NCBI RefSeq assembly: GCF_003430825.1
Contig: NZ_CP024047.1
Coordinates: forward strand, 2,232,001-2,296,000
DNA length: 64,000 nt
Source of the DNA: Natrarchaeobaculum sulfurireducens
Lineage (GTDB): Archaea > Halobacteriota > Halobacteria > Halobacteriales > Natrialbaceae
Direction: 5' to 3'
In this document: piece by piece, positions 39,285-40,095 of the stretch
Layout of the letters: the number at the start of each line of letters is the position of its first letter
How positions within the stretch are numbered: the first letter of the stretch is position 1
Position numbers and translations under genes: made by a program
Notes under the pieces: model-generated
The model's input: the letters and a program-made list of their open reading frames with translations, nothing else
Told to the model about the DNA's origin: nothing
The model's database searches: none

Positions 39285-39329
39285 AGTTAGCGCCGATATG
39301 AGATATGGGTTATTTGGCGTGCGCTAACT
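39285..39329. promoter_or_regulatory. Inverted repeat bracketing the P-type ATPase promoter
   Basis: Perfect 9-base arms AGTTAGCGC (39285-39293) and GCGCTAACT (39321-39329) with 27 bases between them; arm centres are 36 bases apart. The spacer holds the AT-rich box (ATATGAGATAT) whose centre is ~25 bases upstream of the ATPase ATG, so the arms flank the TATA box. This all lies in the 60-base gap between the HTH_10 regulator gene and the ATPase gene. Likely operator for the adjacent regulator. Confidence 0.6.
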
Positions 39330-39336
39330 CGGCCGC

Positions 39337-40095
39337 TCAGCGGACACCGTTCGTGGCGAGCGACTCGAGTGAGTCCTCAGCCGAGACGAACGCCGTCGCG
39401 AGGGCCGCTTCGGCGCGTCGTAGCCGATACGAGAGCGTCGACCGTGGCACCCCCAGCCGATCGGAGAGGTCGCCGAGTTCGATCCGGCGAGGCGTCTCGT
39501 AATAGCCGTATTCGACGGCAGCATAGAGGGCATCGCGCTGCTCACTCGGTAGCGAGGCGTCCGAGTCGCCGTCGAGACTGCTCCCATCCGGGCCGAGTTC
39601 GGTCAGCCGGAGCATCTCCATACCGGTACACTCGTCGACCTCCTCGGCGAGGGCGTCGAAGAAGTCGTGAACCGGTCTCCCATCGCCCAGGACGATCCGC
39701 CACCGGTAGCGCCGCCCCTCGCGGTAGGTCTCGAACAACAGTCCATCGCCTAGCCGCTCGAGTGCAACGTGGGGGACAGACGTACAGACGTCCGTCCGAT
39801 CCCAGTAGGTATAGACGACGCGCTCGTCACTCGAGCGGTCGAGCACCTGCACGTCACAGTCGGCCCCACAGTCGTCTTTGACGAGACAGTCCGCGAAGAA
39901 CTCACCCGTTTTGTAGGCCTTCTCGAGGGCCTCGAGCGCGGCTTCCGGTCCCTCCGCGCGGTCGACCCGCCAGAGGCTATCCGAAGTGACGTGACACGAC
40001 AGCGATCGAATCGATGTCCCCTGGTACTCCGCGAGGACGTCTGCGACGGGATTCGTACCCGGCTCGTACTCGAGGGCGAAGACGAACTCTCTCAT
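39337..40095 (-). CDS. Cysteine-rich HTH_10 (Bat-type) regulator
   Basis: 252 residues from ATG (MREFVFALEY). The C-terminal ~55 residues are an HTH_10 domain (ALYAAVEYGYYETPRR, DLSDRLGVPRSTLSYRLRRAE), the DNA-binding module of bacterioopsin-activator-like regulators. The N-terminal part carries Cys34-His35 and a Cys70, Cys76, Cys80 cluster plus Cys104, spacing that could bind a metal ion. The gene lies directly upstream of and codirectional with the Zn/Cd-type ATPase, with a palindrome in the gap between them, so a metal-sensing role is inferred. Confidence 0.85.
   Translation of the reverse strand: MREFVFALEYEPGTNPVADVLAEYQGTSIRSLSCHVTSDSLWRVDRAEGPEAALEALEKAYKTGEFFADCLVKDDCGADCDVQVLDRSSDERVVYTYWDRTDVCTSVPHVALERLGDGLLFETYREGRRYRWRIVLGDGRPVHDFFDALAEEVDECTGMEMLRLTELGPDGSSLDGDSDASLPSEQRDALYAAVEYGYYETPRRIELGDLSDRLGVPRSTLSYRLRRAEAALATAFVSAEDSLESLATNGVR

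Follow-up and report, generated by a model that had tools for sequence, protein, structure and literature searches.

The Halobacterium regulator Bat possesses a helix-turn-helix of the HTH_10 type. Bat and the bop regulon resemble the regulator described here in the family type of the helix-turn-helix at the C-terminus, in the presence of a promoter-upstream site dedicated to the system (predicted here) and in the role of activator, which is expected for the present protein (PMC2253796, PMC1447603). Bat senses through GAF and PAS/PAC domains, its signals being oxygen and light, whereas the present regulator carries a PF24281 domain with conserved Cys and His residues and has a metal pump as its predicted target. 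Activation of the gas vesicle genes by GvpE requires that the UAS lies close to the BRE; GvpE is a dimeric activator whose two-part UAS is adjacent to the BRE in the same manner as the palindrome of the present locus (PMC4390858). GvpE is leucine-zipper-like, and differs from the present regulator in fold, site sequence and signal. Metal-dependent control of archaeal P1B ATPases, as proposed here, is known for the Lrp/TRASH regulator of the haloarchaeal Cu ATPase gene yvgX, an activator in Halobacterium, and for CopT of Sulfolobus (PMC3600143). These proteins combine Lrp/AsnC-type DNA-binding with a TRASH metal-binding domain and respond to copper, whereas the present system comprises an HTH_10 protein, in which a domain scan detected no match to TRASH, and an ATPase of the Zn/Cd class. 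The ArsR/SmtB/CadC and MerR/ZntR proteins perform the job proposed here, i.e. metal-responsive control of a ZntA/CadA-like exporter, for bacterial Zn/Cd ATPases, but belong to unrelated protein families.

Haloarchaeal metal regulation, in the literature searched, involves Lrp/TRASH, SirR and ArsR-type proteins; neither an HTH_10 protein acting as a metal sensor nor an operator for the PF24281 family was described there. A Halobacterium P-type ATPase annotated as copA increases by ~668-fold with zinc (PMC6305349), which demonstrates strong metal induction in this group, although nothing here ties copA to the present regulator.

A conserved regulator-ATPase gene pair

The window, i.e. the whole stretch of 64,000 nucleotides of Natrarchaeobaculum sulfurireducens DNA that was analysed, contains the following genes and domains:

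40095-39337, minus strand: regulator gene (252 aa) with N-terminal PF24281 (HVO_2928_N) and C-terminal HTH_10 domains
39595..40089, minus strand: HVO_2928_N domain, residues 3-167, putative sensor (profile match; predicted fold)
39397..39543, minus strand: HTH_10 DNA-binding domain, residues 185-233 (profile match)
39276-36601, minus strand: P1B-type ATPase (891 aa) with two HMA domains, CPC, DKTG, and the Zn-class TM7 Lys and TM8 Asp

Both genes share one strand, and the regulator stop codon is separated from the ATPase ATG by 60 bases. The first-pass annotation, which had placed a Zn/Cd-class exporter gene directly after an HTH_10 regulator across a 60-base gap, was confirmed in this respect. 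The ATPase carries an HMA CxxC, the TM6 CPC, DKTG, the TM7 Lys and a TM8 Asp-Met-Gly; among the homologues read, CPC was found in 64/66, the TM7 Lys in 47/48 and the TM8 Asp in 46/47. A score of 496 bits was obtained with the Cd-family model TIGR01512 (cut-off of 313.5) and the protein fell below the cut-off of the Cu-family model TIGR01511. On these sequence features the ATPase is assigned to the P1B-2 class (Zn/Cd/Pb) and is predicted to be an exporter.

The regulator matched PF24281 with 210.4 bits (cut-off of 27 bits) and HTH_10 with 60.3 bits (cut-off of 23.1). None of the ArsR families exceeded its cut-off (PF12840 HTH_20 scored 16.4 bits against 27), other winged-helix matches were likewise sub-threshold, and the MerR N-terminal HTH gave no match up to an E-value of 0.1. 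No GAF or PAS sensor domain was detected in the regulator, leaving PF24281 as the only putative sensor domain. An AlphaFold2 model of this protein was confident (mean pLDDT of 86), with two consecutive beta-alpha-beta-beta-alpha-beta units predicted for the N-terminal domain and a helical HTH part. The N-terminal domain was structurally closest to Ta1207 of Thermoplasma acidophilum (PDB 5m86; VIA Z of 11.2 over 141 residues at 3.1 A), which has 6% identity to the regulator and aligned over this domain alone, and the modelled HTH resembled sigma region 4; neither of these model-based likenesses informs on the function of the regulator. Searching solved structures by sequence produced weak HTH matches only, and HVO_2928 received an incidental mention only in the literature searched.

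A metal ATPase was encoded downstream, usually by the next gene, of every regulator of at least 48% identity for which the neighbourhood was readable. A maximum-likelihood tree was derived for 81 regulators, including 38 paralogues, of which those examined were not beside a Zn/Cd ATPase. The ATPase-linked regulators formed one clade with a branch support of 100/99.

Two unusual arrangements were observed among the linked loci. In Natrinema gelatinilyticum (L094, 5001-6653), a frameshifted regulator gene and a mostly deleted ATPase gene seem to be decaying together, with the operator still present. In L141 and L037, regulators of the linked clade adjoin P-type ATPases of only ~39-40% identity to that of the window and the operators are degenerate, a possible change of target or metal.

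A conserved palindrome beside the BRE/TATA of the ATPase gene

A comparison of ~100 loci, representing 82 distinct promoters, was used to derive a 14-bp palindrome located in the gap between the two genes. The relevant features of the window are:

39314..39327, minus strand: predicted operator TTAGCGCACGCCAA, departing by one base from the conserved palindrome TTGGCG-YR-CGCCAA
39308..39313, minus strand: putative BRE, ATAACC, directly abutting the operator (ATAAcC in aligned promoters; haloarchaeal consensus of PMC4983044)
39302..39307, minus strand: putative TATA, CATATC (consensus cGTAT)
39285-39293 and 39321-39329, no strand assigned: arms of a 9-bp inverted repeat, perfect in the window but not conserved

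In the aligned promoters the palindrome is followed by ATAAcCcGTAT and then by the ATG at 34 or 37 nt past the palindrome, a spacing that was found in 52/58 distinct close promoters. The eight outer bases were exact in 48/58 close promoters and contained one mismatch in a further 9/58. Distant orthologues exhibited CGAAGG as the BRE and CTTATC as the TATA. Haloarchaeal promoters have a consensus of CGAAA for the BRE, TTWT for the TATA and WW at -10, and transcripts are mostly leaderless (PMC4983044). The putative elements of the ATPase promoter resemble this consensus and a TA is conserved ~11 nt before the ATG. Placement of the TATA at ~28 nt before the ATG suggests that the ATPase transcript may be leaderless.

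A different operator had been put forward in the first-pass annotation, i.e. the 9-bp inverted repeat, whose arms bracket the likely TATA (39302-39307) across 27 nt. The window does contain this repeat without a mismatch. Dinucleotide-shuffled versions of the gap seldom yielded a 9-bp repeat (37/20000; 0.19%), and 31/3197 (~1%) of the 60-base stretches of the window held such a repeat. Given these shuffle and background frequencies, a single 9-bp repeat found by eye is weak evidence. The right arm was missing from 57/57 other close promoters, in which the best complement to each left arm matched at 4-7/9 positions, i.e. the level of shuffled sequence. The conserved 14-mer accounts for the left arm, which is one half of it. 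A role for the widely spaced repeat as operator is thus scarcely credible and this candidate was rejected. The 14-bp palindrome was overlooked in the first reading because one half-site of the window copy carries a G-to-A substitution.

The distribution of the palindrome was examined in a panel of 61 genomes. The exact pattern TTGGCGYRCGCCAA was present in 24 of these, as a single copy in each, and was located at an ATPase promoter in 22. The window copy was the sole match with zero mismatches to TTRGCGYRCGCCAA in its genome. No second exact site was found in the panel genomes carrying an ATPase site, and a wider regulon of exact sites was rejected for this panel. The remaining matches, one each in two genomes lacking a linked pair (G040 and G060), were at chance level because a reversed control pattern was found in seven genomes. 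The site stays with the ATPase gene where the regulator is 1.2-2.9 kb away (L034, L058, L059, L082 and L176) and also where the regulator is on another contig.

Further panel pairs, with regulators of ~50-55% identity to that of the window, were also assessed. A palindrome was detected just upstream of the ATPase gene in 15/15, mostly as TTGGAAYRTTCCAA and with a mismatch in the copy of L141; the variants carried by distant linked pairs were TTGGAAYRTTCCAA or TTGGTGTGYACCAA. For homologous ATPases without an adjacent regulator, the promoter site was found in 0/21, with one poor candidate ~260 nt upstream in L171. The difference between linked and unlinked ATPases was significant (Fisher p ~3e-10, run as 15/15 versus 0/20 and ignoring relatedness). 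One genome (G034) contains both kinds, i.e. a linked ATPase with the site and a second, unlinked ATPase (L155) without it. Inspection by eye of the neighbouring frames detected no ArsR-type or other regulator upstream of the unlinked ATPases.

Operator cores differed between clades, with CG, AA and TG types being observed. Within the recognition helix, CG-type cores were associated with S222 in 54/54 cases and AA-type cores with T or N222 in 19/19, while TG-type cores accompanied a change of R218 to G in three Haladaptatus/Halocatena sequences. This covariation of core and helix tracks the clades, may be phylogenetic only and is treated as supportive only.

Additional copies of the site were present in some promoters. 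In 13/58 promoters a second, weaker copy with at least 6/8 matches was located 22 bp upstream of the first. In one locus (L173; G024:C2:529600-533300, ~700-900), six exact tandem 35-bp units TTGGAATACTCCAACGAAGGCTTATCGAGAGACGG lie upstream of the ATPase gene, each holding operator, BRE and TATA, so that the core of this promoter has been multiplied naturally. Both the second copy and this array suggest further or cooperative binding.

The site was absent upstream of the regulator gene itself in 62 loci of the close group, and autoregulation in this group was rejected on this basis. As there is no such site, the regulator gene is probably constitutive.

Candidate ligands and the PF24281 family

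The first-pass annotation had proposed a metal-sensing cluster of Cys70, Cys76 and Cys80. Conservation was examined for residues in the following span:

39769..39993, minus strand: candidate ligands H35, C70, C76, C104 and H109, invariant in the linked clade (C80 in close orthologues only)

All three cysteines of the proposed cluster are present in the window regulator. C80 was found in 56/58 close sequences but in 0/9 distant ones, and C156 behaved alike. Among orthologues that keep the palindrome, C70, C76 and C104 were conserved and C80 was not; H35 and H109 were likewise invariant throughout the linked clade. The definition of the cluster was revised accordingly, with C104, H35 and H109 in place of C80. 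These Cys and His residues are inferred to form a metal-binding site.

In most paralogues the C70/C76/C104 pattern is retained in the form CNEC(L/I)...C...C(H/R)S(I/V)P, so the triad is an older feature of the family. Since paralogues located away from metal ATPases largely share the triad, it may represent a structural zinc site or serve in redox sensing, as opposed to metal sensing.

PF24281 was detected in 243/292 of the haloarchaeal genomes sampled. A palindrome of the form TTGG-N6-CCAA preceded the paralogue's own gene in 11/37 cases, as compared to 0 for five permuted palindromes, and was positioned at -46 to -52 or -22 to -27 of the start codon, with one site at -133. Five paralogues (L109, L115, L118, L135 and L136) had the site at -22 to -27 as opposed to the usual -51, suggesting self-repression.

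These positions bear on a repressor model, whereby the regulator would sit on or near the BRE and block TFB in the absence of metal, and metal would release the regulator (i.e. the logic of SmtB/CadC with another protein). This arrangement would suit the -22 to -27 sites of several paralogues as well as the direct junction of palindrome and BRE in the ATPase promoter. The site is, however, upstream of the BRE/TATA in all of the ATPase promoters, in the manner of known haloarchaeal activator sites (i.e. the GvpE UAS), and Bat, the best studied HTH_10 protein, is an activator (PMC2253796). Repression is consequently considered unlikely, and activation is favoured because of where the operator lies, in analogy to GvpE and Bat.

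Gene neighbourhoods of three paralogues were also recorded. The second PF24281 regulator of the window genome (L179; G000:C3:991500-995500, 902-1783 and 1914) precedes the cytochrome bd genes (cydAB), with a family-type palindrome TTGGCTATAGCCGA between the regulator and cydAB, upstream of the latter. Paralogues with the CNEC motif were found beside a gene for a DsbA-like thiol oxidoreductase (L107, 2067-2714) and beside ferredoxin and ferritin-like genes (L126, 262-1443), hinting at redox or iron roles.

Such neighbours, together with the largely family-wide Cys triad, would also fit a regulator whose cysteines detect thiol stress, oxidative stress or some other signal, with the ATPase as one response and metal not as a direct ligand. 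In the ATPase clade, however, the sole target with a site is a Zn/Cd-class metal exporter, C156 and C80 appear in the close group, and the first Cys of the CNEC motif of the paralogues is lost. We regard this explanation as improbable.

Discussion

The regulator is probably a metal-binding HTH_10 activator dedicated to the adjoining ATPase via the palindrome beside the BRE. In the mechanism proposed, it would function as a one-component metal sensor with a single target, i.e. the Zn/Cd-type efflux ATPase next to it. Zn(II)/Cd(II)-class ions would occupy an N-terminal Cys/His site, for which C70, C76, C104, H109 and H35 are the candidates. The regulator would bind, probably as a dimer, to TTGGCG-YR-CGCCAA just upstream of the BRE/TATA and, when loaded with metal, may help to recruit TFB/TBP and so activate production of a largely leaderless ATPase mRNA. 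The earlier suggestion of a compact circuit, in which a regulator belonging to neither the ArsR nor the MerR family controls a metal exporter, is well supported by the conserved linkage, the dedicated operator, the monophyly of the linked regulators and the conserved Cys/His residues, but with a different palindrome from the one first proposed.

A broader interpretation is put forward tentatively. The PF24281-HTH_10 proteins may be a general archaeal family of one-component Cys/His sensors with a shared TTGG-N6-CCAA site, acting as activators or repressors depending on the position of the palindrome relative to the BRE/TATA, within which the ATPase clade would be a dedicated Zn/Cd sensor and a new class of metalloregulator. 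If the proposals are correct, a widespread family of unknown function would gain a predicted operator, target and set of ligand residues, and the pair would provide a single-target model for archaeal transcription activation beside the BRE as well as candidate metal biosensor parts that function in high salt. The haloarchaea would then possess a metal sensor unlike the bacterial ArsR and MerR types.
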